Source: Saprospiraceae bacterium
Lineage (GTDB): Bacteria; Bacteroidota; Bacteroidia; Chitinophagales; Saprospiraceae
Direction: 5' to 3'
Length of the DNA stretch: 64,000 bases
NCBI GenBank assembly: GCA_030729925.1
Contig: JANQWK010000093.1
Location: forward strand, 1 to 64,000
A model generated the notes under the pieces. That model was not told the DNA's origin. It saw only the letters and a program-made list of their open reading frames with translations, and did no database searches. Of the stretch, positions 4,618 through 64,000 are shown piece by piece; the stretch's first letter is position 1; every line of letters starts with the position of its first letter. The translations under genes were made by a program, and so were the position numbers.

Positions 4618-7600
4618 TTGCCATTGCAACCCCTTCATCCGATTCCTGATTTTATCAAAGCACTTGCTGACAAAGGGTTTGACACCAGCAAGGTCACTCC
4701 TTTCCAGGTATGGGAGGCATTAAGAGGAGTGAAAAAAAATTCGGATGCCAATCAGTTGAAAGCCGGATTAGAGCCTTTATTTTGTACATCCCCTGAAGAA
4801 ATTGCAATTTTTTCCGGGGTTTTCGAGGCTTGGTTGCCGGCTTTGTCCAAAGTTGCAGGACAGGATATTCCTCGCTTCGGAGGAATTTTGTTGATCCTCT
4901 TGGTTTTTGCTACCCTGCTTTCAGGGGTAGTTTACCAGTGGGTACTTCCTTCCGCAACGGGCTGTACCAATCCCGGATCCAGCAATTATGATCCTTTTGC
5001 GCGAAGGGCTTGCGAAGATTGTTGCAGGGAAAACCCCTACAAAGGGTTGGTGGCCTGTATGGATACTTCCGCCATCAATTTCAATCCGAATGCAAGAGTG
5101 CCTTGCGAGGATTGTTGTTCTTACAGGGGCTGTATGGATCAAAAAGCGCTGAACTACAATGTTAAAGCGCGTATTTCCTGCACTTCCTGCTGCGAATATC
5201 CCGGTTTTGCCGCACTGGCCGACCAATCAGATCGTTCCTTTGCGGCTTTCAAAACAAAATTGGAACCGACAGTTATAGACCTTCCACCAGGACTTGAAGT
5301 GATCCCCACCAATGGTTGGTTTTTTTGGTACAAGTGGAAAATACTACTGGCTACCCTGGGCTTATCTTGGTCCCTTGCGTTTGTGACGGCGCGAGTGGTT
5401 TTCCTTCGGCGCAAGCAAAACCTTATCCCCCTGGTTTCACCGACTACAGCTGTTCCCGGACTGCGAATCCCTGCAAAGACCCGTCTTCATTTTGAGAAGC
5501 ATCCCGGTTTTGCCGATGTAAAAGGCCTTTTTCTAAAAGAAAAATCGAGGTCAAAAGGAGCCAAAACAAACAAATATTTATTTTTCCTTGAAAAGGAGCA
5601 CACCCAGGCGCATTTCTCGGTATGGTTAGACCAATTGTTTTTGGAATTAAAAACAGCAAAGGTTGCCATAGAACGGTTCTTGGTGGACACTAGTACCGGG
5701 AAGGTGTACAACGAACAGCACCAGGAAGGAACAACAATGGATGCCTTGTTCCGCGATCATGGTGGTGCCATTGCTTTGTTGTTTACTTCCGAAGAGACAA
5801 GGATCTTGCCCCGACTGCCCTGGAAGGATCAGGCTGTATTGACGTGTTTGTCTCCAAGGGATTGGGACGACAGTGTGTTGCAATTGGGATCTGCTACCGT
5901 ATTGGCGCCGGCTTCGCTGGAGGGCTTACAGGCGGTATTAGAGGGTTTTAGGGGGAAATTTACAGTTCGCCCAGAGGAATGGATGGCAGAAGCCGAAAAA
6001 TTTCCGGCTACATTTGCTCCTAAGCCTGGATTGATCCTGGAGGAATTGGATCGGTGCTTTTCGGAGGATATCCGCAGGTGGATAGCAGCTTGTGCGCTCG
6101 CGCCTGAATTGAGCTGGGAGTTTACGCTGGCAATCGGAAAGGCTTTGTTTCAGAATCGCTGGGAAACGCTGAGCCACGAGTCCTTGCTTCGCGTGTTCCA
6201 GTTGCCTTGGTTTGCCGAAGGCCGAATACCGGAAGAGGCTCGATTGCTTTTAGCCAAACACCCTTTACTCACAGAGGATGTCAGGAAAAAGACCCATGCA
6301 GCGATTGCCGGGGTGTTGCGCGATTATCCCACTTCGGGGTCTCAGACAGCTCGGGCAAAAGATCTGGCTAAGATCCATGAATCATGGTCTCGGAACGGTG
6401 CTATTGCAGCAGACAAAGAAGCAGCCAGACTGCAAAAAAAAGAGATGGTGGCTCCCAAAAAACTTCCCTTAGACGCTTCTGTTGTTACAGGTAGCGTATT
6501 AGCCATTCTTTTCTTGTTATTGACCCAGGTAAAAATTGCCATTTTCGACACTGCTTTTTTACTTCCAGGTTCTCCCGTTTTGTATAGCTGGTCCGATGAT
6601 AACGCTCAACGTACCCTGAATGAATCAGAAGACCTCTACCGTTTTTTAAGGTACTTGGAATTATATGCCTTGGATGAGGCCGCGCTTACCTTGGAGACCC
6701 TATTTTTAAATGATCCTTCCGACAGTGTGTCTTTGCAGCAGCTGGAAAAAGGCTTGGAGTTGGCTTATGCAGGAATTTATAACCAGGCGCTGGAATTGCA
6801 CAGGAATGAATACTATAACTTGTCGGTGTCCCTGGTCAATCGCATGCACCAGTCTATTCAAAAGTCCCTCGCCGGACACGGCATAGCCCTTTCCTCTCTT
6901 TATGATGGTTTCGAACCGTTGTCACTGCAACCTATCCGCTTGTGGTATTTGATGGGCTTAAATTTTTTCCAACTCGGAGACCCCATTACTGCAGGAATGT
7001 ACCAGGAAGCCATCGAGCGCAACAGCCTTCCTGCAGGAGCCGAAGAAGTTCGCATTCCAAATTTGTCTCACCTGCTGACCTATGACGCGGTGGATACCTT
7101 TTCTCAAGGGCGATTGAGGGTGAAAAGTAATGGAAAGTACGGGTTCCTCGACGAGCAGGGGCTTCCTGTGCCCGATAGCTTGGGGGAGGCTTTTGTTTTT
7201 GACTTTGCCTATAATTTTTTTAACGGCAAGGCTTTAGTAAAACAAGACAACCGTTTCTCCTTTGTAGATAAAGACCTCAGGGTATTGCAGTCCAATAATT
7301 TTGTGACCTGGAACCCCGCTATGGATAGCCTGAGTGGCCAATTTGGTTTCAAGGATGAAAATGACAATTGGGTGATTGCGCCCCAGTATCTCGAAGTATT
7401 TCCTTTTTCAGGGGATCTGGCAAGGGTGCGACGGCCCGATGGTCGGATGAGCTGGATTCAGCGGAATGGTCGCTGGTTTACACCTTATTCCTTTGATGAG
7501 GTGCGAGATTTTTCTTTTGGGTACGCAGCAGCGCGAATGGGGAATCAATGGGGGTATGTAGATTTGTCGGGCGATTTGAGGATAGCGTGTCGCTTTGACG

Positions 7601-7947
7601 CAGCGGGCGATTTTGAAAGGAATTATCGTGCCTCGGTAAACTGGAAAGACAGGACGTTTGAAGTTAATGTCAATGGCTTATGTACTTCACGGGAATGCCC
7701 GGAAAAAGTGTTTTCTGTGCTGGTGTTGGATGCGGAGCGACTTACCCCCGTGCCAAGGGCGAGGTTTTACAATGCCACCTGGGGTACCTATTATACCGAT
7801 AAGGAAGGTGACTTTACGCTGAATATGCCCGAATTGAATTTGCCCCTGTCTGTTCGCTTTTTCGTGGTTGCAGATGGATACACCGGAGGAACTTATCTGA
7901 TTCATTTTTCGGAGGCCGAGAACGCTCTGAGAATATTACTGGAGTGA
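4618..7947 (+). CDS. Large three-pass membrane protein: CoxE-like helical N terminus, Cys-repeat loop, soluble middle domain, WG repeats
   Basis: A 1109-residue protein. Residues 8-76 (DFIKALADKGFD... CTSPEEIAIFSGVFEAW) look like the helical N-terminal part of CoxE/VWA-type proteins. TM segments are at about 88-110, 236-263 and 622-646. The first loop (116-193) carries three Cys repeats of the type CMDxxAxNxNxxAR followed by C-E/T-D/S-CC. Residues 285-610 form a soluble domain with LPWKDQAVLTCLSP, DIRRWIAACALAPELSW and LPWFAEGRIPEEAR. After the third TM come a helical TPR-like stretch (650-800), WG-type repeats (830-1000: GKYGFLDEQG, NQWGYVDLSG) and a C-terminal beta domain like a carboxypeptidase regulatory fold. 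Predicted topology puts the Cys loop and the WG region outside the membrane. The start is a TTG at 4618; no in-frame ATG fits the N-terminal domain. Function unknown. Confidence 0.75.
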   Translation: MPLQPLHPIPDFIKALADKGFDTSKVTPFQVWEALRGVKKNSDANQLKAGLEPLFCTSPEEIAIFSGVFEAWLPALSKVAGQDIPRFGGILLILLVFATLLSGVVYQWVLPSATGCTNPGSSNYDPFARRACEDCCRENPYKGLVACMDTSAINFNPNARVPCEDCCSYRGCMDQKALNYNVKARISCTSCCEYPGFAALADQSDRSFAAFKTKLEPTVIDLPPGLEVIPTNGWFFWYKWKILLATLGLSWSLAFVTARVVFLRRKQNLIPLVSPTTAVPGLRIPAKTRLHFEKHPGFADVKGLFLKEKSRSKGAKTNKYLFFLEKEHTQAHFSVWLDQLFLELKTAKVAIERFLVDTSTGKVYNEQHQEGTTMDALFRDHGGAIALLFTSEETRILPRLPWKDQAVLTCLSPRDWDDSVLQLGSATVLAPASLEGLQAVLEGFRGKFTVRPEEWMAEAEKFPATFAPKPGLILEELDRCFSEDIRRWIAACALAPELSWEFTLAIGKALFQNRWETLSHESLLRVFQLPWFAEGRIPEEARLLLAKHPLLTEDVRKKTHAAIAGVLRDYPTSGSQTARAKDLAKIHESWSRNGAIAADKEAARLQKKEMVAPKKLPLDASVVTGSVLAILFLLLTQVKIAIFDTAFLLPGSPVLYSWSDDNAQRTLNESEDLYRFLRYLELYALDEAALTLETLFLNDPSDSVSLQQLEKGLELAYAGIYNQALELHRNEYYNLSVSLVNRMHQSIQKSLAGHGIALSSLYDGFEPLSLQPIRLWYLMGLNFFQLGDPITAGMYQEAIERNSLPAGAEEVRIPNLSHLLTYDAVDTFSQGRLRVKSNGKYGFLDEQGLPVPDSLGEAFVFDFAYNFFNGKALVKQDNRFSFVDKDLRVLQSNNFVTWNPAMDSLSGQFGFKDENDNWVIAPQYLEVFPFSGDLARVRRPDGRMSWIQRNGRWFTPYSFDEVRDFSFGYAAARMGNQWGYVDLSGDLRIACRFDAAGDFERNYRASVNWKDRTFEVNVNGLCTSRECPEKVFSVLVLDAERLTPVPRARFYNATWGTYYTDKEGDFTLNMPELNLPLSVRFFVVADGYTGGTYLIHFSEAENALRILLE

Positions 7948-8000: not shown

Positions 8001-8804
8001 ATGCAGAAAATTATGTTGGTAGTTTTGGTGCTGGGGACGCTCCCCCTGCTAGGTCAGCAAAATCAGAACAGAGACACCTTGCCAAATGTCGGAGTGATGA
8101 CCTACGATGAAGTAGAGGCACTGATGCCCTGGGTCGAAGGCGTGGGCAAAACATCCAGGGAAATGTTGGAGGGGCAAAGCGTGAAGTCATATTTGATGCC
8201 CGTTCGTAGAACAACCAATCCAGGCGAGGAATGGGCCTATATTCTGACTGCCTGTCTGGAGTATTATGTCAACTTGGACAACAACTACAAGGTCAACCTT
8301 AGCCCCGATTACCTGATGCTGAATTTGATGAATGGCGGATATGATACCCGCCTGCAAACGGCTTTTTCCTACCTGGCCGGTGACGGTACGGTAAGTGCTG
8401 CAATTCTCCCTTACGGCGCTACTGCGCTTACCAGTGCGGTGTATGCGACTTATAAGTATCGGATTTCAAATTATTTACACCTTTTCAGGGAAATTACGCG
8501 TCCCAGCCAACGCTCCTATGAGACCAGAAAGGCATTGATGCGGGGCAACCCGGTAGTGGTAGAACTAAAAACGGATCCTTCTGTGAAAAACCAAGAGGGG
8601 CGCCGCTTGTTGGAGGTGCCTGAGGGCAATGTATTGCTTCCTTTTTTGGTGGTCGGATACAACGATGTGGACAAAACTTTCGAGCTGCTGGCTTCTTGGG
8701 GTCGTTCCTGGGGCGATGGGGGCTACATGAAAATTAGTTTCGATGATTTTGAAAATTATGTAGAGAATGGTTTTGTATTGGTACCAGTATCCCAAAGTAA
8801 CTAG
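8001..8804 (+). CDS. Secreted papain-fold (C1-like) protein without catalytic residues
   Basis: A 267-residue protein with signal peptide MQKIMLVVLVLGTLPLLGQ. The ATG at 8001 is preferred over an upstream in-frame GTG (7944) that overlaps the stop of the preceding gene, because it places the signal peptide at the N terminus and is preceded by AAAAAGAG. The papain outline is clear: WAYILTACLEYY matches the Cys-helix, LSPDYL and AFSYLAGDGTV match the following segments, and LVVGYND plus SWGRSWGDGGYMKIS match the His and Asn strands. The catalytic Cys, His and Asn are replaced by Glu77, Leu213 and Ala231. A binding or structural partner of the upstream WG-repeat protein is the likely role (inference from gene order and shared periplasmic location). 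Confidence 0.7.
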   Translation: MQKIMLVVLVLGTLPLLGQQNQNRDTLPNVGVMTYDEVEALMPWVEGVGKTSREMLEGQSVKSYLMPVRRTTNPGEEWAYILTACLEYYVNLDNNYKVNLSPDYLMLNLMNGGYDTRLQTAFSYLAGDGTVSAAILPYGATALTSAVYATYKYRISNYLHLFREITRPSQRSYETRKALMRGNPVVVELKTDPSVKNQEGRRLLEVPEGNVLLPFLVVGYNDVDKTFELLASWGRSWGDGGYMKISFDDFENYVENGFVLVPVSQSN

Positions 8805-16774: not shown

Positions 16775-19700
16775 ATGTCGAACAATTTACAAAAATTCTT
16801 CCTTCTCGCGATTGTTCAAGTCGCTTTTGCAACAGTCAGCTTTGCGCAATTGCTTCCTTCAGAACGCAATTTGTTGATGCATGCACTGGAACCTTATCAG
16901 CCTCATCCTGAGGCCAGGAGTTGTGGGATGAACGACCACATGGTGTCTTTGTTGCAAAACATGGAATACCAATTAGCTTTTCGAGAAAAATTGACGCGCT
17001 TGCAGTCGGTAGGTGGCCCCAGAGCCGCGTGTAGTTCTCCGGTAAAGGTACCGGTGGCCGTGCATTTTGTCGGGTTGACCAGCCCAAATGCATCGTGTCT
17101 GACTACCTTGGCAATTGGTCAGATAGCGGCATTGAACAACGATTATGCAGGTACCAATTCAGATATCAGCATTTGGAATGGTTCAGCTGCCAGTTATTTC
17201 CCGGGGGTGTCCAATGGCAATTCTTGTTTGCAGTTTGAGATTGCCACCCGCAACCACCCTGCAGGAACCGGCTTGTCGGATGGCGACCTGGCTATAACAA
17301 TCAATCAGGTCACCGGCGATTTTTCGAGTACCTGGGCAAATTACCTCAATATTTTTGTAATCAAAAATACAGGTTATCTGGGGTATTCCCCTCTTGGTGG
17401 TCGTGGTAATGGTGATGGGGTAGTGGTGGATGCTGCTGCTTTTGGAGTGGGCGGAAGTTGTGGTGAGGTGTATTCTACTTCCCCGTACAACAAAGGACGC
17501 ACCTTAACGCACGAATTAGGGCATTATCTGTTATTGGATCATATTTGGGGCGGAGGCTCGAGTTGTTCGGACAGTGATAATGTTGCAGATACACCCAACC
17601 AGGATGATGAGTATTATGGGTGTCCTTCTCTGGGGGCAGCGAGCTGCGGTTCTACCGATATGCACATGAGCTACATGGATTATACCAATGATGCTTGTAT
17701 GTACATGTTTTCTGCAGGACAGGTGGCCAGGATGGAAGCTTATACTGCCACTTTTTTGAGCAGGATTACTTCCAATGCAGCAAATGTACTGGGTACAGGC
17801 GGCGGATCTCCTCCTGCGCCTACTTGTAACGATGGGATCCAAAACCAGGGTGAGACTGGCGTGGATTGCGGCGGACCTTGTACGGCTTGTGCTACTTGTA
17901 ACGACGGTATCCGAAACCAAGGCGAGACGGGCATTGATTGTGGTGGACCTTGTACAGCTTGTGCTACTTGTAACGACGGCATCCAAAATCAAGGTGAGAC
18001 GGGTATAGATTGTGGTGGTCCTTGCACGGCTTGTGTTTCTTGTACAGATGGTATTCAGAACCAAGGTGAGACCGGTGTGGATTGTGGCGGTCCTTGCGCC
18101 CCTTGTGGGACATGTACGGATGGGATCCAGAACCAAGGTGAGACCGGTGTGGATTGTGGCGGTCCTTGTACCCCATGTCCTTCTTGTGAGGATGGTATCC
18201 TAAACCAAGGTGAGGAAGGGGTGGATTGCGGTGGCCCTTGTGCGCCATGTCCTACCTGTGAAGATGGTATCCAAAATCAAGGCGAGACCGGCGTGGATTG
18301 CGGCGGCCCTTGTGCCCCATGTCCGACTTGTGATGACGGCATCCAAAACCAAGGTGAGGAAGGTATAGATTGCGGTGGTCCTTGTAGTGCAATATGCCCA
18401 ACCTGCGATGATGGGGTGCAGAATGGTACTGAGGAGGGGATAGACTGCGGTGGCCCTTGCGAAGTGTGTCCATCTTGTGAAATTCCAACCAACCTGACGA
18501 TATCCGGTCTGGAGAAAAATAGAGTAACCCTGAATTGGGATACGGTAGCCAATGTTATTCATTATGTGGTGCAAATCAGGTTAGAGGGAAGTGAGTCTTG
18601 GTACAGTTTCCAAAGTCAAAATAATTCCTTGACTATTCGCGGTCTTTCCAAGGAAACTATTTACGAATGGCATGTGATGACAGATTGTGAGCGTAAGGAT
18701 AGCGATTGGTCATTACTTTGCAGCTTCAATAGCAGCGACCCCAATAGTGGCTCTTGCGAAGAACCACCCGTGACTGCGACTTGCGAAGATGGCATTCAAA
18801 ACGGCGATGAGACGGGGGTAGATTGTGGGGGAGCTTGTGCGCCTTGCGAACAGACCGAACCGGATCCGACCTGTGAAGATGGTGTCCAGAATGGTGATGA
18901 GACCGGTATAGATTGCGGTGGTTCCTGCGCGCCTTGCGATCAAACTGAGCCAGATCCGACCTGCGAAGATGGCATTCAAAACGGCGATGAGACCGGCATT
19001 GATTGCGGCGGTGCTTGCGATCCTTGTCCTACTTGCGACGATGGCATCCAAAATGGTAACGAAGAGGGCGTGGATTGCGGCGGAACATGTGCACCTTGCA
19101 GCAGCTGTCAGGCTCCGGATGGCTTATTGGTGACTAATTTTGCCAGAGGCAGGGTTACCCTAAACTGGAATGCGGTAGAAGGTGCTAATGCTTATAACAT
19201 TCAAATCCGCTTGCTAGGATCGGAAACTTGGTATGATTTCCGCACGTTGAGTACTTCCCAAACTATCCGCGGATTGAGCCGCAATAGTGATTACGAATGG
19301 CGCTTGTCCACCGAGTGCTCCGATGAAACAAGCAATTGGTCGGCAATATGTGTGTTTAACAGTGATGATCCCGATAGTGGACAATGTAGCACGGAACCAG
19401 ACCCGACTTGTGATGATGGTATCCAGAACGGCGATGAGACGGGAGTGGACTGCGGCGGTTCTTGTGCCCCCTGCGAACAAACCGAACCGGAGCCAACCTG
19501 CGAAGATGGTATCCAAAACGGTGATGAGACCGGTGTGGATTGCGGCGGTTCTTGCACCCCTTGTGGACAAACCGAACCGGACCCGACTTGCGAAGATGGT
19601 ATCCAAAACGGCGATGAGACGGGAGTAGATTGCGGTGGTTCTTGTACCCCTTGCGGACAAACCGAACCGGATCCGACCTGCGAAGATGGTATCCAGAATG

Positions 19701-20302
19701 GTGATGAGACCGGTGTGGATTGCGGCGGCTCCTGTATTCCTTGTGACGATACTTGCCCTACGCCTACAGATCTGGTTCAGGTGGCGCTTGTAACCAATGC
19801 CATCTTAAGCTGGTCAGGTTTTAGCGAAGCTGATGAATACTTGCTCCAAATTCGTTTGAGCGGTGCTACAGACTGGACAACCTATCGTTCTCGAAACAAC
19901 AGGTACGTGGTTTCCCGCTTGAGAAGAGGTGAAACCTACGAATGGAGAGTGCAAACCGTGTGTGGTGAAAACGCTTCTACTTGGTCGGCAGCTGCGTTTT
20001 TCGTAGCAGGTACTTCCGGTAACACAAGTGGCAGAAAAGGCGCACCGATTAACTCGGGTACTGATTTCCAAATGTACCCCAACCCGGTAAGCGATATCTT
20101 GACCTTGCTTATACCTGTATCCGATAGCGGAGTCTCCCATATCCGTCTGCTTGATCTGAACGGAAAAATCCTGATTAGTCAACCCATGGAAGCGGGTATG
20201 CGTACGATGGAACTCAATGTGTCAGGGCTGCCTAAGGGGCTGTACTTTGTAAAATTGGAAAGCAAGGGTAAAGTAAATCTGAAAAGGTTGGTGATTCAAT
20301 AA
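16775..20302 (+). CDS. Secreted M43-type metalloprotease with 17 Cys-rich repeats, three FN3 domains and a T9SS sorting tail
   Basis: A 1175-residue protein. A signal peptide (ending VSFAQ) is followed by a pro-region and a zinc metalloprotease domain of the pappalysin/cytophagalysin type: HELGHYLLLDH at 246-256 with Glu247 as catalytic base, and a Met-turn SYMDYTNDACMYMF. The usual metzincin Gly (HExxHxxGxxH) is Leu here. From residue 350 there are nine, then four, then four copies of a 24-30-residue repeat (C-x-DGIQN-x-x-E-x-G-x-DCGG-x-C-x-x-C). Each block is followed by a fibronectin type III domain of about 100 residues. The last 75 residues are a type A T9SS sorting domain (FQMYPNPVSD...GLYFVKLESKG), so the protein should cross the outer membrane and be attached or released there. 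The natural substrate is unknown. Confidence 0.88.
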   Translation: MSNNLQKFFLLAIVQVAFATVSFAQLLPSERNLLMHALEPYQPHPEARSCGMNDHMVSLLQNMEYQLAFREKLTRLQSVGGPRAACSSPVKVPVAVHFVGLTSPNASCLTTLAIGQIAALNNDYAGTNSDISIWNGSAASYFPGVSNGNSCLQFEIATRNHPAGTGLSDGDLAITINQVTGDFSSTWANYLNIFVIKNTGYLGYSPLGGRGNGDGVVVDAAAFGVGGSCGEVYSTSPYNKGRTLTHELGHYLLLDHIWGGGSSCSDSDNVADTPNQDDEYYGCPSLGAASCGSTDMHMSYMDYTNDACMYMFSAGQVARMEAYTATFLSRITSNAANVLGTGGGSPPAPTCNDGIQNQGETGVDCGGPCTACATCNDGIRNQGETGIDCGGPCTACATCNDGIQNQGETGIDCGGPCTACVSCTDGIQNQGETGVDCGGPCAPCGTCTDGIQNQGETGVDCGGPCTPCPSCEDGILNQGEEGVDCGGPCAPCPTCEDGIQNQGETGVDCGGPCAPCPTCDDGIQNQGEEGIDCGGPCSAICPTCDDGVQNGTEEGIDCGGPCEVCPSCEIPTNLTISGLEKNRVTLNWDTVANVIHYVVQIRLEGSESWYSFQSQNNSLTIRGLSKETIYEWHVMTDCERKDSDWSLLCSFNSSDPNSGSCEEPPVTATCEDGIQNGDETGVDCGGACAPCEQTEPDPTCEDGVQNGDETGIDCGGSCAPCDQTEPDPTCEDGIQNGDETGIDCGGACDPCPTCDDGIQNGNEEGVDCGGTCAPCSSCQAPDGLLVTNFARGRVTLNWNAVEGANAYNIQIRLLGSETWYDFRTLSTSQTIRGLSRNSDYEWRLSTECSDETSNWSAICVFNSDDPDSGQCSTEPDPTCDDGIQNGDETGVDCGGSCAPCEQTEPEPTCEDGIQNGDETGVDCGGSCTPCGQTEPDPTCEDGIQNGDETGVDCGGSCTPCGQTEPDPTCEDGIQNGDETGVDCGGSCIPCDDTCPTPTDLVQVALVTNAILSWSGFSEADEYLLQIRLSGATDWTTYRSRNNRYVVSRLRRGETYEWRVQTVCGENASTWSAAAFFVAGTSGNTSGRKGAPINSGTDFQMYPNPVSDILTLLIPVSDSGVSHIRLLDLNGKILISQPMEAGMRTMELNVSGLPKGLYFVKLESKGKVNLKRLVIQ
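17822..18469 (+). repeat. Cys-rich coding repeat, block 1 (nine units)
   Basis: Nine tandem units of the pattern TC-x-DGIQNQGE-x-G-x-DCGGPC-x-x-C inside the metalloprotease. Six Cys per pair of units are strictly kept, and the spacing is nearly constant (24 residues). The high DNA similarity between units points to recent expansion. Such repeats probably form small disulfide-linked stalk modules. Confidence 0.85.
18779..19099 (+). repeat. Cys-rich coding repeat, block 2 (four units)
   Basis: Four units of TCEDGIQNGDETG-x-DCGG-x-C-x-PC, the first two joined by an acidic QTEPDP linker. The block sits between the first and second FN3 domains of the metalloprotease. The units differ from block 1 by NGDE in place of NQGE, so blocks 2 and 3 share a more recent common unit than either does with block 1. 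Confidence 0.85.
19406..19744 (+). repeat. Cys-rich coding repeat, block 3 (four units)
   Basis: Four units of TCEDGIQNGDETGVDCGGSC-x-PC, separated by QTEPDP or QTEPEP linkers. The units are almost identical to each other at the protein level. The block sits between the second and third FN3 domains of the metalloprotease. Confidence 0.85.
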
Positions 20303-56072: not shown

Positions 56073-56609
56073 GACCCGGTTTTTATTTGTTTTGGTGATT
56101 TTGTTTCCATTTATTAAATTTTTGCTTTCATGAGTTATTCGCTTGCCCGTTGATATGGTGAGCGGCTGGGCTGCCGTTTGCCGATCTTCTTGCCTGGTGC
56201 TTGGCCTTGTTCAGGATTTTTTTTCTCAAATGCTTGATTTTGTTGGGTTTTCCTTGCACCTCTTTTTGTCTATCCTTTTTTTATTTATTGATTTTCAGAG
56301 GTTTATTTGCGTCCAAATTATCGATTTCGACGATGTAAATTTTAAGTTAAATCGAATTTTTTGTCAATCAAAACAAGCTTTTCAGCTTGCTTTGATGCAA
56401 ATAATTAAGAATTTCCTATCTTAGCATATCATCAGACTAAAGTATTGACTCCCCCAGAGTAAAAAACCAAATAACGATCTGATAGTCAGTAAAATCAAGA
56501 GAGCAATCCATTTTTTAACGCTTATTCGTCAAACCGTTAGAGTGCCATTTATTTTGCCATCTCAGCAGTTGAGTTGGTTTTGTATTTTTCATAACTTAAA
56601 ACTGGTTTT
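56073..56609 (+). other. Intergenic region upstream of the first SusC gene
   Basis: This 537-base gap is rich in T on the plus strand and shows no convincing gene. It contains a hairpin at 56368-56395 and, in its last 44 bases (56566-56609), a leader similar to the one before the second SusC copy: CAGTTGA, TGG, TTTTTCAT and TTAAAACT recur with changes. No exact TAnnTTTG element is present near the start; TATTTTTC at 56583 is one base off. Confidence 0.6.
56368..56395. repeat. Inverted repeat upstream of SusC
   Basis: TCAAAACAAGC (56368-56378) pairs with GCTTGCTTTGA (56385-56395) with one mismatch around the loop TTTTCA. It lies 214 bases before the SusC start and has no T-run on the plus side. 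It could be an operator or RNA structure. Confidence 0.4.
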
Positions 56610-59039
56610 ATGAACATCAAATTCAAGGTGCTTCTGAGTGCTTTGTTGTTAGTGTTGGGTGTGCAGGTTTCGTTTGCACAGTTCACGGCGACAGGTACAG
56701 TGAAGGACGATGCTGGTGAGCCATTAATTGGTGCCACAATTCAAGTAAAGGGTACTACCACGGGTACGGTAACGGATCTGGATGGTGGTTTTAGCGTTGA
56801 GGTACCGACGAACACGGCTACGCTGGTGGTTTCGTACACGGGTTACGAGACGCAGGAGGTTGGAATTACTTCCGCCAACAGGACGATTGACATTGTGCTG
56901 GCTACTTCGGCCGAGCAATTGGCAGAGGTAGTAGTGGTTGGTTATGGAGAGACGTCGAAGGAGGGTCTGACCGGTGCGGTGTCTTCGTTGAAGAGCGACC
57001 GTCTGGAGCAGGTTCCTTTGGCTTCGGTAGAGCAGACGCTGCAGGGTAACATTGCAGGTTTGCAGTCCAACTTGTCCAACGGTCAGCCGGGGTCTCAGGT
57101 GGAAGTCCGTATCCGCGGCCAGGGTTCTATTTCTGCATCCAGTGAGCCGCTGTATGTGGTGGACGGAGTGCCTTTGTTCAACCCGGGTGATGGGTTGACC
57201 AGCCAGTCGGAGACCGCCAACGTAATGGCGAGTATGAACCCCAATGATATTGAGTCGGTTACGGTGTTGAAAGATGCATCTGCGACGGCGATCTACGGAT
57301 CACGTGCGGCCAACGGGGTTATCCTGATCACGACGAAGTCGGGTAAGGCAGGTAAGCCCCAGGTGAAGTTCAGCGCACAGGTGGGCTTCAACGACTGGGC
57401 GGTTTCAGACAGCAAAAATGTGCGTAGTTTGGATGCCCGGGAGTACGTGGATTTGTTCATGGATGGTGAGTTGAACCGCGGTACGTCTATCGCTACGGCA
57501 ATCAGCCGTTTCAATAATAACTATCCGGATCCACAGACAGGTAGGCCGGCGGTGGATATTACTCCTGATGGTGCTGGTGGTTATACCGTTGGTGAGGTTA
57601 GAGTAGATACAGATTGGTTCAATGAGCTATCGCGCACAGGAATCAACCAGAGCTACGACATGAGCGTGAGCGGTGGTAATGAGACGCTGACGTATTTTGC
57701 GTCGGCTTCCTACTTTGACCAAGAGTCTCCGATCATCGGGGTTGGTTTGGATCGCTATTCTACCCGTGCCAACGTTTCTGTCCAGGCACTTCCCTGGTTG
57801 AAGTTGGTCAACAACCTGAACGTGTCGCGTACCTATCAATCAGGTCCGGATGATGATACGGCTTTCAGTAATCCGATCTATACCATGTATCTGCTTCCGG
57901 CGGTAATTCCTACAAAAGATGCGCAGGGTTTGTCCTACGATGGTCACAAAGGATTTTTTATGGGTGGTAACAACCCGGTGGGTTCTTTGAGCGGCGATGA
58001 TGATTTGTACTGGATCCTGAACCGTATTGTGGATAATGTCAGCGCAGAGGTGACGTTAGCTAAGGGCTTGAAATTCAAGTCTAACTGGGCGATTGACCTC
58101 TACGGCTACAACGAGGTGTACTACCGTAATGCCCGTTATGGCGACGGTCGTAACTCCAATGGTTTTGCACAGGAGACAACCCGTAATATCACCAACTGGA
58201 TGGGTTCACAGACATTGAACTATAACAAAACATTGGGAGAGGTACACAACTTTTCTGCCTTGGCAGGATACGAGGCCAACAAAGTAACGACTCGCTCTTC
58301 GTTTGTACAGGGTCAAAATTTCCCGCCAAGTCCACAGTTGCGCACCATCGAAAACGCAGCGGAGATTGTGGGTGGAACCAGCTCCTTGACCGGCTTTGCG
58401 TTTGAGTCATACTTCGGACGGATTTCGTACAACTACGATTACAAGTACTACATTTCAGCTTCATTGCGCCGCGATGGTTCTTCTCGTTTTGGTACAGAGA
58501 ACCGCTTTGGTAATTTCTGGTCACTGGGTGCATCCTGGCGATTGGATCAGGAGGCCTTTATTCAGAATATCGAAGCAATTAATGAATTGAAACTGCGCTC
58601 CAGCTACGGTATCACAGGTAATGCCGAGATCGGAAACTTTGCGTGGTTGCCTTCCGTGAGCTTCGGTATTGATTATGATGGTTCACCAGGGGGTACCTTC
58701 ACCAATATTGGTAATACCAATCTTACCTGGGAACAAAGTGCTGCGTTCAACGTAGGAGTGGACTTCCGAGTGTTCGACCGCGTGAGCGGTGTGGTGGAGT
58801 ATTTCTGGAGAGAGTCGGACAACCTGTTGCTCAATCTTCCGGTTTCCCGAACTACAGGTTTTACCAGTGCTACCCAGAACTTCGGTGCAATGGTCAACAA
58901 GGGTATCGAACTTACCCTGGATGTAGATCTGGTAAACACCGGTGATTTCAGCTGGACAGCAGGGGGTAACATTTCGTTTATTGAGAATGAAATTACCCGC
59001 TTGGCCGAGCCATTTGTGGATGGAACAGGTAACCGTTTC
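56610..59039 (+). repeat. Long direct repeat, copy 1
   Basis: The first 2430 bases of SusC copy 1 match 61571-64000 at an offset of 4961 bases. I compared the two along their length and saw no difference. The true end of the repeat is beyond the window. Upstream of both ATGs similarity falls to a short, partly matching leader. Confidence 0.9.
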
Positions 59040-59696
59040 CGCCGTGAGGAGGGAAGAGAGTACAATGAGTACTGGGTGTATGACTACGCCGGGGTGAATC
59101 CGGATAATGGTCTTCCCTTGTGGTACACCGACGAGACGCGCGAGGCTACAACCAGCGTGTTGGCTCAGGCACAGCGCTTCTATATCGGCAAATCAGGTAC
59201 ACCGGACTTCTTCGGGGGCTTCAATTCGAACTTGTCATGGAAAGGCCTGACCTTGGATGCGAATTTCTCTTTCACCTGGAACAACTACCTCTACGATGCT
59301 ACAGCATGGGTAACCCAGGGTGATGGTGCTTTCACGCCGCGAAGCCAAACGAGCCGCGTACTGAACCGTTGGAGAAACCCAGGCGATATTACAGATGTTC
59401 CTAAGTTCCGCTGGGGAGGCAACTCGAACAGTAACACACAGGGACAATCGCGACATATCTACGACGGAACGTTTATCCGTTTGAGAAATGTTACCCTGGC
59501 TTACCAAATGCCATCTGCGACGGTTAAGAAATTGGGCTTGGCTTCTGCACGGGTATATGCCAGAGGGATCAATTTCTGGACTTGGACCCGCGATCCAGAT
59601 TTGGGCGTGGATCCTGAGACGGCGGTCAATGGTTACCTGGGATCACCAGTACCCAATATGAAGACGCTTTCTTTTGGTATTGATGTTGGTTTTTAA
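56610..59696 (+). CDS. SusC/RagA-family TonB-linked outer-membrane transporter
   Basis: A 1028-residue nutrient importer. Signal peptide ends VQVSFAQ. Residues about 25-105 are a carboxypeptidase-regulatory-like domain (GTVKDDAGEPLIGATIQVKG, ending IDIVLATS). A plug domain follows with EVVVVGYGETSKEGLTGAV, the SusC hallmark IRGQGSISASSEPLYVVDGV and IESVTVLKDASATAIYGSRAANG, then a long beta-barrel to the C terminus ending SFGIDVGF. With the SusD lipoprotein it forms a pedal-bin transporter for oligosaccharides or peptides; the substrate is unknown, since no glycoside hydrolase or regulator lies nearby. Its first 2430 bases recur at 61571-64000. Confidence 0.95.
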   Translation: MNIKFKVLLSALLLVLGVQVSFAQFTATGTVKDDAGEPLIGATIQVKGTTTGTVTDLDGGFSVEVPTNTATLVVSYTGYETQEVGITSANRTIDIVLATSAEQLAEVVVVGYGETSKEGLTGAVSSLKSDRLEQVPLASVEQTLQGNIAGLQSNLSNGQPGSQVEVRIRGQGSISASSEPLYVVDGVPLFNPGDGLTSQSETANVMASMNPNDIESVTVLKDASATAIYGSRAANGVILITTKSGKAGKPQVKFSAQVGFNDWAVSDSKNVRSLDAREYVDLFMDGELNRGTSIATAISRFNNNYPDPQTGRPAVDITPDGAGGYTVGEVRVDTDWFNELSRTGINQSYDMSVSGGNETLTYFASASYFDQESPIIGVGLDRYSTRANVSVQALPWLKLVNNLNVSRTYQSGPDDDTAFSNPIYTMYLLPAVIPTKDAQGLSYDGHKGFFMGGNNPVGSLSGDDDLYWILNRIVDNVSAEVTLAKGLKFKSNWAIDLYGYNEVYYRNARYGDGRNSNGFAQETTRNITNWMGSQTLNYNKTLGEVHNFSALAGYEANKVTTRSSFVQGQNFPPSPQLRTIENAAEIVGGTSSLTGFAFESYFGRISYNYDYKYYISASLRRDGSSRFGTENRFGNFWSLGASWRLDQEAFIQNIEAINELKLRSSYGITGNAEIGNFAWLPSVSFGIDYDGSPGGTFTNIGNTNLTWEQSAAFNVGVDFRVFDRVSGVVEYFWRESDNLLLNLPVSRTTGFTSATQNFGAMVNKGIELTLDVDLVNTGDFSWTAGGNISFIENEITRLAEPFVDGTGNRFRREEGREYNEYWVYDYAGVNPDNGLPLWYTDETREATTSVLAQAQRFYIGKSGTPDFFGGFNSNLSWKGLTLDANFSFTWNNYLYDATAWVTQGDGAFTPRSQTSRVLNRWRNPGDITDVPKFRWGGNSNSNTQGQSRHIYDGTFIRLRNVTLAYQMPSATVKKLGLASARVYARGINFWTWTRDPDLGVDPETAVNGYLGSPVPNMKTLSFGIDVGF

Positions 59697-59748
59697 CTAA
59701 TTAAAAGACCAAGTAGCAAGTAGTTCATTCAAAAAAAATATTATCGCA

Positions 59749-61158
59749 ATGAAAATATTCAACAAATTAATGATTTTGGTGACGGTGTTCGGGCTAAGTG
59801 CCTGCGGGGATGATTTCCTCGACCTGTCACCAAGTAACGCGCTGCCGTTCGAGACGGCGATCCAGACGGTCAATGACCTGGATGCAGCTGTAAATGGATT
59901 GTATTCTCAAATGCAAAGCTCAGATTGGTACGGCCGCTACTTCATTCTGCTTCCGGATATCATGTCAGATGATGTGAAGCAAAACTCGAATGCCAACCGC
60001 GGTCGGGTATGGGCAGAATATACCGGAACGATCAACGATGTGCAGAATATCCCGCGCAATACCTGGACTGCCATCTATGTTGGCGTCAACCGCGCCAATT
60101 TTGTGATCAACTCAAACCTGGAGTTCCCGGCAGCGGTGCAAACCCAGGCCAACCAATTGATCGGCGAGGCTTACGCCGTTCGCGCCCTTGCTCATTTCGA
60201 TTTGGTGCGTTTGTATGCCCAACATTATGGCTTCACAGCGAATGCCAGCCATCCCGGTGTTCCGGTGGTGACCGAGTTCAACCAGGATGCACAGCCTGCC
60301 CGCAATACGGTTGCAGAGGTGTATGCGCAGGTGAAGGCAGACCTTAACCAGGCGATATCCTTGATGACGCTTAACCGCGGCAAAGGAAGGTTCACCAAAA
60401 ATTCCGCAAAGGCGATCTTGGCCAGGGTATCTTACTACCAGGGTGATCTTGCTGCTGCAGGTAGCCTTGCCAACGAGGTGATCACTTCAGGTGCTTATTC
60501 ACTTACTGCTGGTAGCAATCTGCTGGCACAGTGGGCAGATCTGGGTGACAGCCCGGATGCCATCCTGGATGTGGTGAACAATACCTTGGATAATGTTGGT
60601 TCAGAGTCTGTTGCAGGGATGTACAACGTGTCCGGTTATGGCGATTACCTGCCTTCTATGGACCTGGTGAGCTTGTACGATGATGCAGATATCCGCAAAG
60701 GCTTGTTTGTAGAGGACAACAAACTGGGTGGGGGTGTCCTCGGTAACTTGCGCCAGGCAAAGTATTTCCATCCTCGGGGCGAGGACAATTTCCCAGTGAT
60801 TCGCCTTCCAGAGATGTACCTGATCCGTGCAGAGGCGAGAGCTGTTTCTGGGGATACAGCAGGTGCTATCGAAGACTTGATGACGATCCGCCGTCGTGCT
60901 TGGGCAGCTGCTCCTGATGTGACAGCGACCGGTGCTGCTTTGGTGGAGGAGATTTTGTTGGAAAAACGCCTTGAACTGGCTTTCGAAGGACATCGTTTGT
61001 TCGAATTGACTCGCCAGAAGAAAGGTGTGGTTCGGGTGAACTGTACCGCTCCTGCGGGTTCTTGTACGATCAATTACCCCAACGATTTCTTTGTTCTTCC
61101 GATTCCAATCGAAGAAATTAACGCAAATCCAAGCATGACTCAAAACCCTGGTTATTAA
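59749..61158 (+). CDS. SusD/RagB-family substrate-binding lipoprotein
   Basis: A 469-residue outer-membrane lipoprotein, the lid of the SusC transporter. Signal and lipobox FGLSAC end at about residue 19, followed by GDDFLDLSPSN, the usual SusD opening. TPR-like helices carry IGEAYAVRALAHFDLVRLYAQHYG, and the C-terminal part has LPEMYLIRAEARAV and EEILLEKRLELAFEGHRLFELTRQ (each typical of SusD), ending in PIPIEEINANPSMTQNPGY. It starts 52 bases after SusC and ends before a terminator at 61197-61232. Confidence 0.94.
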   Translation: MKIFNKLMILVTVFGLSACGDDFLDLSPSNALPFETAIQTVNDLDAAVNGLYSQMQSSDWYGRYFILLPDIMSDDVKQNSNANRGRVWAEYTGTINDVQNIPRNTWTAIYVGVNRANFVINSNLEFPAAVQTQANQLIGEAYAVRALAHFDLVRLYAQHYGFTANASHPGVPVVTEFNQDAQPARNTVAEVYAQVKADLNQAISLMTLNRGKGRFTKNSAKAILARVSYYQGDLAAAGSLANEVITSGAYSLTAGSNLLAQWADLGDSPDAILDVVNNTLDNVGSESVAGMYNVSGYGDYLPSMDLVSLYDDADIRKGLFVEDNKLGGGVLGNLRQAKYFHPRGEDNFPVIRLPEMYLIRAEARAVSGDTAGAIEDLMTIRRRAWAAAPDVTATGAALVEEILLEKRLELAFEGHRLFELTRQKKGVVRVNCTAPAGSCTINYPNDFFVLPIPIEEINANPSMTQNPGY

Positions 61159-61570
61159 TAATTTAGGGACTTTAATTTAGTGTGGTTTAGATGAAAGGGG
61201 TGTCATGGTGTGCCGTGGCATCCCTTTTTTTTCACAATAATTTATTTGTAATTATTTTTTTTCAATCAATTATTTTTTTTGATTGGATTCCTATAATCTT
61301 ATTTCTTACCTCCCTTCTATTATCCTACTTTCACAATTTGCGTATTCTGGCAACAAATTGATGACCCAAAATCAGGATTTCTATACTTTCGTTCATCATC
61401 AAACAACAGGTGCCCTGTTCGGGGTGCGATGCATGAGAGCAATCCGGAATATTTGATTTTGCCAAACCCCACAGATATATAACGCCTTGACATACATTTT
61501 TTTGTGCGTCTCAAAGAGTCATTTCATACAGTTGATCTGGCGTTTTTTTTCATTCATTAAAACTAGATTT
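61159..61570 (+). other. Intergenic region between SusD and the second SusC
   Basis: A 412-base gap that opens with the SusD terminator. After it, an A/T-rich stretch holds a 7-base inverted pair CAATCAA (61263-61269) / TTGATTG (61279-61285). The last 42 bases (61529-61570) resemble the leader of the first SusC. No gene was recognised. Confidence 0.6.
61197..61232 (+). terminator. Intrinsic terminator after SusD
   Basis: GGGGTGTCATGG pairs with CCGTGGCATCCC (three G-T pairs) around a TGTG loop, followed by eight T. It reads on the plus strand, 38 bases after the SusD stop, so SusC copy 2 should need its own promoter. Confidence 0.85.
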
Positions 61571-64000
61571 ATGAACATCAAATTCAAGGTGCTTCTGAGT
61601 GCTTTGTTGTTAGTGTTGGGTGTGCAGGTTTCGTTTGCACAGTTCACGGCGACAGGTACAGTGAAGGACGATGCTGGTGAGCCATTAATTGGTGCCACAA
61701 TTCAAGTAAAGGGTACTACCACGGGTACGGTAACGGATCTGGATGGTGGTTTTAGCGTTGAGGTACCGACGAACACGGCTACGCTGGTGGTTTCGTACAC
61801 GGGTTACGAGACGCAGGAGGTTGGAATTACTTCCGCCAACAGGACGATTGACATTGTGCTGGCTACTTCGGCCGAGCAATTGGCAGAGGTAGTAGTGGTT
61901 GGTTATGGAGAGACGTCGAAGGAGGGTCTGACCGGTGCGGTGTCTTCGTTGAAGAGCGACCGTCTGGAGCAGGTTCCTTTGGCTTCGGTAGAGCAGACGC
62001 TGCAGGGTAACATTGCAGGTTTGCAGTCCAACTTGTCCAACGGTCAGCCGGGGTCTCAGGTGGAAGTCCGTATCCGCGGCCAGGGTTCTATTTCTGCATC
62101 CAGTGAGCCGCTGTATGTGGTGGACGGAGTGCCTTTGTTCAACCCGGGTGATGGGTTGACCAGCCAGTCGGAGACCGCCAACGTAATGGCGAGTATGAAC
62201 CCCAATGATATTGAGTCGGTTACGGTGTTGAAAGATGCATCTGCGACGGCGATCTACGGATCACGTGCGGCCAACGGGGTTATCCTGATCACGACGAAGT
62301 CGGGTAAGGCAGGTAAGCCCCAGGTGAAGTTCAGCGCACAGGTGGGCTTCAACGACTGGGCGGTTTCAGACAGCAAAAATGTGCGTAGTTTGGATGCCCG
62401 GGAGTACGTGGATTTGTTCATGGATGGTGAGTTGAACCGCGGTACGTCTATCGCTACGGCAATCAGCCGTTTCAATAATAACTATCCGGATCCACAGACA
62501 GGTAGGCCGGCGGTGGATATTACTCCTGATGGTGCTGGTGGTTATACCGTTGGTGAGGTTAGAGTAGATACAGATTGGTTCAATGAGCTATCGCGCACAG
62601 GAATCAACCAGAGCTACGACATGAGCGTGAGCGGTGGTAATGAGACGCTGACGTATTTTGCGTCGGCTTCCTACTTTGACCAAGAGTCTCCGATCATCGG
62701 GGTTGGTTTGGATCGCTATTCTACCCGTGCCAACGTTTCTGTCCAGGCACTTCCCTGGTTGAAGTTGGTCAACAACCTGAACGTGTCGCGTACCTATCAA
62801 TCAGGTCCGGATGATGATACGGCTTTCAGTAATCCGATCTATACCATGTATCTGCTTCCGGCGGTAATTCCTACAAAAGATGCGCAGGGTTTGTCCTACG
62901 ATGGTCACAAAGGATTTTTTATGGGTGGTAACAACCCGGTGGGTTCTTTGAGCGGCGATGATGATTTGTACTGGATCCTGAACCGTATTGTGGATAATGT
63001 CAGCGCAGAGGTGACGTTAGCTAAGGGCTTGAAATTCAAGTCTAACTGGGCGATTGACCTCTACGGCTACAACGAGGTGTACTACCGTAATGCCCGTTAT
63101 GGCGACGGTCGTAACTCCAATGGTTTTGCACAGGAGACAACCCGTAATATCACCAACTGGATGGGTTCACAGACATTGAACTATAACAAAACATTGGGAG
63201 AGGTACACAACTTTTCTGCCTTGGCAGGATACGAGGCCAACAAAGTAACGACTCGCTCTTCGTTTGTACAGGGTCAAAATTTCCCGCCAAGTCCACAGTT
63301 GCGCACCATCGAAAACGCAGCGGAGATTGTGGGTGGAACCAGCTCCTTGACCGGCTTTGCGTTTGAGTCATACTTCGGACGGATTTCGTACAACTACGAT
63401 TACAAGTACTACATTTCAGCTTCATTGCGCCGCGATGGTTCTTCTCGTTTTGGTACAGAGAACCGCTTTGGTAATTTCTGGTCACTGGGTGCATCCTGGC
63501 GATTGGATCAGGAGGCCTTTATTCAGAATATCGAAGCAATTAATGAATTGAAACTGCGCTCCAGCTACGGTATCACAGGTAATGCCGAGATCGGAAACTT
63601 TGCGTGGTTGCCTTCCGTGAGCTTCGGTATTGATTATGATGGTTCACCAGGGGGTACCTTCACCAATATTGGTAATACCAATCTTACCTGGGAACAAAGT
63701 GCTGCGTTCAACGTAGGAGTGGACTTCCGAGTGTTCGACCGCGTGAGCGGTGTGGTGGAGTATTTCTGGAGAGAGTCGGACAACCTGTTGCTCAATCTTC
63801 CGGTTTCCCGAACTACAGGTTTTACCAGTGCTACCCAGAACTTCGGTGCAATGGTCAACAAGGGTATCGAACTTACCCTGGATGTAGATCTGGTAAACAC
63901 CGGTGATTTCAGCTGGACAGCAGGGGGTAACATTTCGTTTATTGAGAATGAAATTACCCGCTTGGCCGAGCCATTTGTGGATGGAACAGGTAACCGTTTC
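61571..64000 (+). CDS. Second SusC/RagA-family transporter, 3' end outside the window
   Basis: An open frame from ATG 61571 to the window edge, coding for at least 810 residues. Every part read is the same as in the first SusC (56610-59696): signal peptide, carboxypeptidase-like domain, plug with IRGQGSISASSEPLYVVDGV, and the barrel up to EPFVDGTGNRF. Since it follows SusD and a terminator, this is the start of a second SusC-SusD unit; a further SusD is likely beyond the edge. Whether the barrel C terminus also matches cannot be told here. Confidence 0.93.
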   Translation, partial: MNIKFKVLLSALLLVLGVQVSFAQFTATGTVKDDAGEPLIGATIQVKGTTTGTVTDLDGGFSVEVPTNTATLVVSYTGYETQEVGITSANRTIDIVLATSAEQLAEVVVVGYGETSKEGLTGAVSSLKSDRLEQVPLASVEQTLQGNIAGLQSNLSNGQPGSQVEVRIRGQGSISASSEPLYVVDGVPLFNPGDGLTSQSETANVMASMNPNDIESVTVLKDASATAIYGSRAANGVILITTKSGKAGKPQVKFSAQVGFNDWAVSDSKNVRSLDAREYVDLFMDGELNRGTSIATAISRFNNNYPDPQTGRPAVDITPDGAGGYTVGEVRVDTDWFNELSRTGINQSYDMSVSGGNETLTYFASASYFDQESPIIGVGLDRYSTRANVSVQALPWLKLVNNLNVSRTYQSGPDDDTAFSNPIYTMYLLPAVIPTKDAQGLSYDGHKGFFMGGNNPVGSLSGDDDLYWILNRIVDNVSAEVTLAKGLKFKSNWAIDLYGYNEVYYRNARYGDGRNSNGFAQETTRNITNWMGSQTLNYNKTLGEVHNFSALAGYEANKVTTRSSFVQGQNFPPSPQLRTIENAAEIVGGTSSLTGFAFESYFGRISYNYDYKYYISASLRRDGSSRFGTENRFGNFWSLGASWRLDQEAFIQNIEAINELKLRSSYGITGNAEIGNFAWLPSVSFGIDYDGSPGGTFTNIGNTNLTWEQSAAFNVGVDFRVFDRVSGVVEYFWRESDNLLLNLPVSRTTGFTSATQNFGAMVNKGIELTLDVDLVNTGDFSWTAGGNISFIENEITRLAEPFVDGTGNRF
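61571..64000 (+). repeat. Long direct repeat, copy 2 (runs off the window)
   Basis: It matches 56610-59039 base for base as far as I could compare. The repeat begins at or a few bases before the ATG, since the sequence GATTTATG here against GTTTTATG in copy 1 already differs. Confidence 0.9.

Follow-up and report, generated by a model that had tools for sequence, protein, structure and literature searches.

Gene conversion between duplicated genes in bacteria is a well-known process, familiar from tufA/tufB and from the rRNA operons. SusC-SusD pairs are the chief nutrient-uptake machines in Bacteroidota, whose genomes each carry many diverged copies. Members of these families in Bacteroides fragilis are reportedly subject to invertase-driven phase variation, as described by Nakayama-Imaohji in 2009 (cited in PMC11868660). 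Conversion rates determined in enterobacteria are 2e-8 per generation for tufA/tufB and 8.6e-6 per operon per donor for rRNA (PMC8022953), and a genome-wide survey collected 26 long-lasting prokaryotic cases, with neither SusC nor TonB in its main text (PMC6053082). The locus described here resembles tufA/tufB and the rRNA operons in that the paralogs are identical within a tract and diverged outside it, but it differs in concerning a transporter unit of two genes, arranged in tandem, from Saprospiraceae. With the invertase system of B. fragilis it has in common that recombination acts on genes of the SusC/SusD families; the repeats here, however, are direct and not inverted. We considered an invertase shufflon and rejected it, as the pairs are not surrounded by strong inverted repeats and the neighbours examined include no invertase. 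In the literature open to readers without a subscription, a search brought up no study of gene conversion between SusC-SusD pairs.

The window, i.e. the whole stretch of 64,000 nucleotides that was analysed, comprises bases 1-64000 of a contig (C93; 73,060 bp) that extends beyond the window end and belongs to a 3.74 Mb genome (G000) assembled in 104 contigs and 99.8% complete. Two SusC-SusD pairs, A and B, lie head to tail on this contig, pair B being truncated by the window end, and they form an isolated group bordered by a CCA tRNA nucleotidyltransferase gene on one side and by an SSS symporter gene on the other. Family scans placed an NhaD-type antiporter, DusB and the CCA tRNA nucleotidyltransferase upstream of the pairs, and the SSS symporter, a transketolase and a DPP5-like peptidase downstream. 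Elsewhere in the window, two long open frames (4618-7947 and 16775-20302; 1109 and 1175 aa) had no NCBIfam match at E 1e-15.

Both genes of the unit belong to the expected families. The SusC protein matches TIGR04056 over residues 26-1028 with 833.6 bits (cut-off 368.25), making it a full-length member of the SusC/RagA family; it contains the Pfam domains CarbopepD_reg_2, Plug and TonB_dep_Rec barrel, and its nearest solved chains are a SusC homolog (8aa4) and RagA (6sli). The SusD gene adjoins the SusC gene and its product matches SusD-like_3 and SusD_RagB (Pfam E 9e-29 and 8e-28), which places it in the SusD family. As in the known SusC/SusD (RagA/RagB) import complexes, a full-length SusC with plug and barrel is followed in the same unit by a SusD lipoprotein; unlike in those systems, the pairs here have no CAZyme and no sigma/anti-sigma regulator among the neighbours examined. 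Neither a carbohydrate-active enzyme nor a dedicated regulator was identified among the three genes upstream and the three genes downstream, so that the locus does not classify as a polysaccharide utilisation locus. The source genome contains 24 SusC genes above the family cut-off, among which the A/B pair is the only duplicate that looks recent: no other two of the 24 are alike in DNA, and the next SusC has 48% protein identity to that of the A/B pair. The nearest SusC relatives are found in Saprospiraceae MAGs.

The original prediction, made from the window alone, had pointed to two SusC genes without visible difference over 2430 bases, and we counted 0 differences in the 2,430 bases compared (56610-59039 against 61571-64000). 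The identity is thus real; the repeated unit, however, consists of two whole SusC-SusD pairs and not of two SusC genes. When the comparison was made on the full contig, copies A and B showed 0 differences over 4,486 bp, a tract that takes in the complete SusC gene (1,028 aa), the spacer between SusC and SusD, and the SusD gene as far as codon 447 of 469 (Table 1). It starts 3 bases upstream of the SusC ATG and runs on through the ends of both SusC genes, breaking off inside SusD, 66 bases before the stop codon.

Table 1. Coordinates of the features of the two SusC-SusD pairs (window positions, except where the contig is named)
Feature	Position	Strand	Description
SusC-A leader	56490..56609	+	weakly similar to leader B
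Identical tract, copy A	56607..61092		4486 bp: SusC, spacer and SusD codons 1-447
SusC-A	56610..59696	+	SusC/RagA-family TonB-linked outer-membrane transporter, 1028 aa
SusD-A	59749..61158	+	SusD-family lipoprotein, 469 aa, partner of SusC-A; Pfam SusD-like_3 and SusD_RagB
Diverged SusD-A tail	61093..61158	+	final codons and stop, outside the tract
Terminator-like hairpin and T run after SusD-A	61192..61236	+	GGGGTGTCATGG-tgtg-CCGTGGCATCCC-T8, fold z -5.95; absent from copy B
SusC-B leader	61450..61570	+	blocks common to leader A: CAGTTGA and TTAAAACT
Identical tract, copy B	61568..64000 in window, to 66053 on contig
SusC-B	61571..64000 in window, to 64657 on contig	+
SusD-B	64710-66119 on contig, beyond window		3' of SusC-B
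Terminator-like hairpin after SusD-B	66142-66176 on contig		fold z -7.5; differs from the hairpin after SusD-A

The contrast at the 3' edge of the tract lies within a single gene. The SusD tails differ at 9 of 66 bases, comprising eight synonymous changes and one V->I replacement, so that 8 of 22 codons have changed while 21 of 22 residues are kept. Set against the 0/4486 differences in the adjoining tract this is highly significant (Fisher p = 1.6e-17), and in terms of dS the values are below ~0.003 in the tract and ~1.1 in the tail. The locus thus has the sharp tract edge that characterises gene conversion or concerted evolution. On the 3' side of the stop codons, no alignable similarity was detected between the A and B flanks.

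A simple tandem event that duplicated one SusC-SusD pair recently, with later replacement of the leaders and the tail, would explain the total identity across 4,486 bp, as well as the absence of a second copy from the relatives inspected with 10-kb flanks. However, a duplication of this kind, in the order R-U-R, should place U also before the first R or after the second, and it was found at neither place: the spacer and leader B are single in the genome, the flanks are unrelated and no repeated flank is present. It had been argued in the original prediction that a recent tandem duplication would leave equal leaders, and here neither the full leader nor the 3' flank is repeated. Furthermore, the SusD-A tail is diverged at synonymous sites and conserved in protein, which requires an older resident SusD. 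We therefore regard a recent simple duplication as highly improbable. Two further origins of the locus were considered and ruled out: a duplicative insertion of the pair into intergenic DNA, by the diverged SusD-A tail already in place, and a donation of tail A by a further SusD gene, since the next closest one in the genome reaches only 45% identity.

At the 5' edge, leaders that had diverged apart from scattered common blocks were likewise predicted and likewise found: the final 27 bases before the ATG are ~78% identical between A and B, and farther upstream the similarity is weak (z ~3-4 against dinucleotide shuffles). The block closest to the ATG has a partial counterpart in the SusC leader of one other relative (L108) and may in part be a conserved leader element, for which reason the similarity of the leaders is on its own weak evidence of age. 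Rfam gave no structured RNA in either leader, and the Bacteroidetes-type promoter motif (TTG...TAnnTTTG) had no exact match in leader A or leader B.

The age of the duplication could be approached through a second genome of the same genus (G073; 88% complete), in which a single contig (C18) carries the end of SusC, SusD, SSS, transketolase and DPP5, matching the neighbourhood on the B side. Between the source species and this congener the SusD body has 77% amino acid identity and ~70% DNA identity, and the SusC-SusD spacer is diverged. Within the source genome, A and B are identical while SusD-B is at 77% amino acid identity to the congener; no counterpart of copy A turned up in the congener, whose genome is incomplete and whose contig ends inside SusC. 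A nucleotide-level constraint as the cause of the identity between A and B is ruled out by the ~70% DNA identity of the SusD stretch to the congener and by the diverged spacer. Over the 66 bases of the tail, the distances are 9 between A and B, 11 between A and the congener and 9 between B and the congener, which suggests that the A/B duplication goes back roughly to the genus split, i.e. the split between the two species, with the wide margin of an estimate dated on a diverged coding stretch of 66 bp only. Since 21 of the 22 residues are kept and the two tails resemble each other far more than they resemble those of relatives outside the genus, we take them as genuine paralog ends.

The last 66 bases of SusD are in themselves well conserved, with 86% DNA identity between the two species compared with a mean of 70% for 66-base SusD windows, and they match the conserved SusD C-terminal motif (LPIP..E..ANP...QNPGY). 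As for the congener contig (locus L107, G073:C18:1-8389), it breaks in the 3' end of SusC at 8223-8389, and the remainder of SusC is absent from the 88%-complete genome, in which the next best SusC reaches 38%. No congener contig overlapping this break was found. SusC could be repeated there also, or the genome could merely be incomplete. No other genome was found to carry both copies, and in an empty-site comparison the relatives did not keep the CCA transferase adjacent to SSS.

On the side of the assembly, no 16S rRNA gene was detected in the source genome despite its 99.8% completeness, and this, together with the 104 contigs, suggests a short-read metagenome assembly; contig-end overlap, examined as a sign of de Bruijn assembly, gave an 83% match. 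Short reads cannot span an exact repeat of 4.5 kb, and where the assembly graph forms a loop, one sequence is written out twice. Similar but non-identical copies could thus have been merged by a short-read assembler, in which case the perfect match, and perhaps the number of copies too, would be an artefact. Yet the repeat is linked to sequences that are distinct and each occur once, namely the two leaders, the two SusD tails and the spacer running from A to B, and this calls for no fewer than two copies. Had the interiors differed as much as the tails do (14% of bases), the copies would have assembled apart. Such an artefact is therefore quite improbable. The true number may be higher than two, and the assembler may have collapsed scattered differences in the interior, which would affect the figure of exactly 100% identity.

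Taken together, these observations make it very probable that the locus is an old tandem SusC-SusD duplicate in which homologous recombination within the genome, that is, gene conversion, has homogenised the interior. Conversion of an older duplicate was also the explanation offered in the original prediction, and it is the diverged paralog SusD tails adjoining the tract that now support it. The starting point would be an old tandem duplication of one SusC-SusD pair, after which, as read from the sequence, the copies would be transcribed separately, each from a leader and up to a terminator of its own. RecA-type recombination between the direct repeats would then copy the sequence of one pair onto the other and would end where homology fails, at the leaders on the 5' side and at the last 66 bases of SusD on the 3' side. 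The edges, having escaped homogenisation, would retain the old divergence, and the outcome would be a single transporter encoded by two units under different control, presumably with differential expression.

How often this copying has taken place is less clear-cut. The conversion had been called ongoing; zero differences date the last homogenisation only, and one recent event fits equally well. Cassette replacement, in which a resident older SusC-SusD paralog, either A or B, was overwritten once and recently by its neighbour's copy, with homology supplied by the start region at one end and by the conserved C-terminus of SusD at the other, departs from gene conversion of an old duplicate as described above only in the number of events, a single one instead of a recurrent process. 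The tract boundaries near both gene ends would suit it, and so does the fact that the data date the last event only. A single event of 4.5 kb is nevertheless hard to envisage if the copies were ~70% identical in DNA, as the orthologs are between the species, and we consider a one-off replacement possible but rather unlikely. Recurrent conversion is favoured over a single event solely on this reasoning, since one event of such a length across ~70%-identical DNA seems unlikely. It had also been proposed that the identity permits a swapping of SusD partners; this would be of little consequence, as SusD itself is part of the tract and a single residue separates the two SusD proteins.

The A/B pair is, in this respect, a fresh example of a known process, and the conversion rates measured in enterobacteria are enough to keep a pair of 4.5 kb alike. 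One may go further and envisage a long-lasting concerted evolution under selection, in which recombination would maintain two identical transporter units under different leaders, one substrate system would thereby respond to two regulatory inputs, and the direct repeats would permit a reversible change of copy number, but this extension we regard as doubtful.

For studies of these transporters, the locus illustrates that identical SusC-SusD copies can vanish or be miscounted in short-read genomes, and that identical copies are not necessarily recent ones. A homogenised whole SusC-SusD pair with dated edges indicates, furthermore, that duplicates can stay identical while their control regions diverge.
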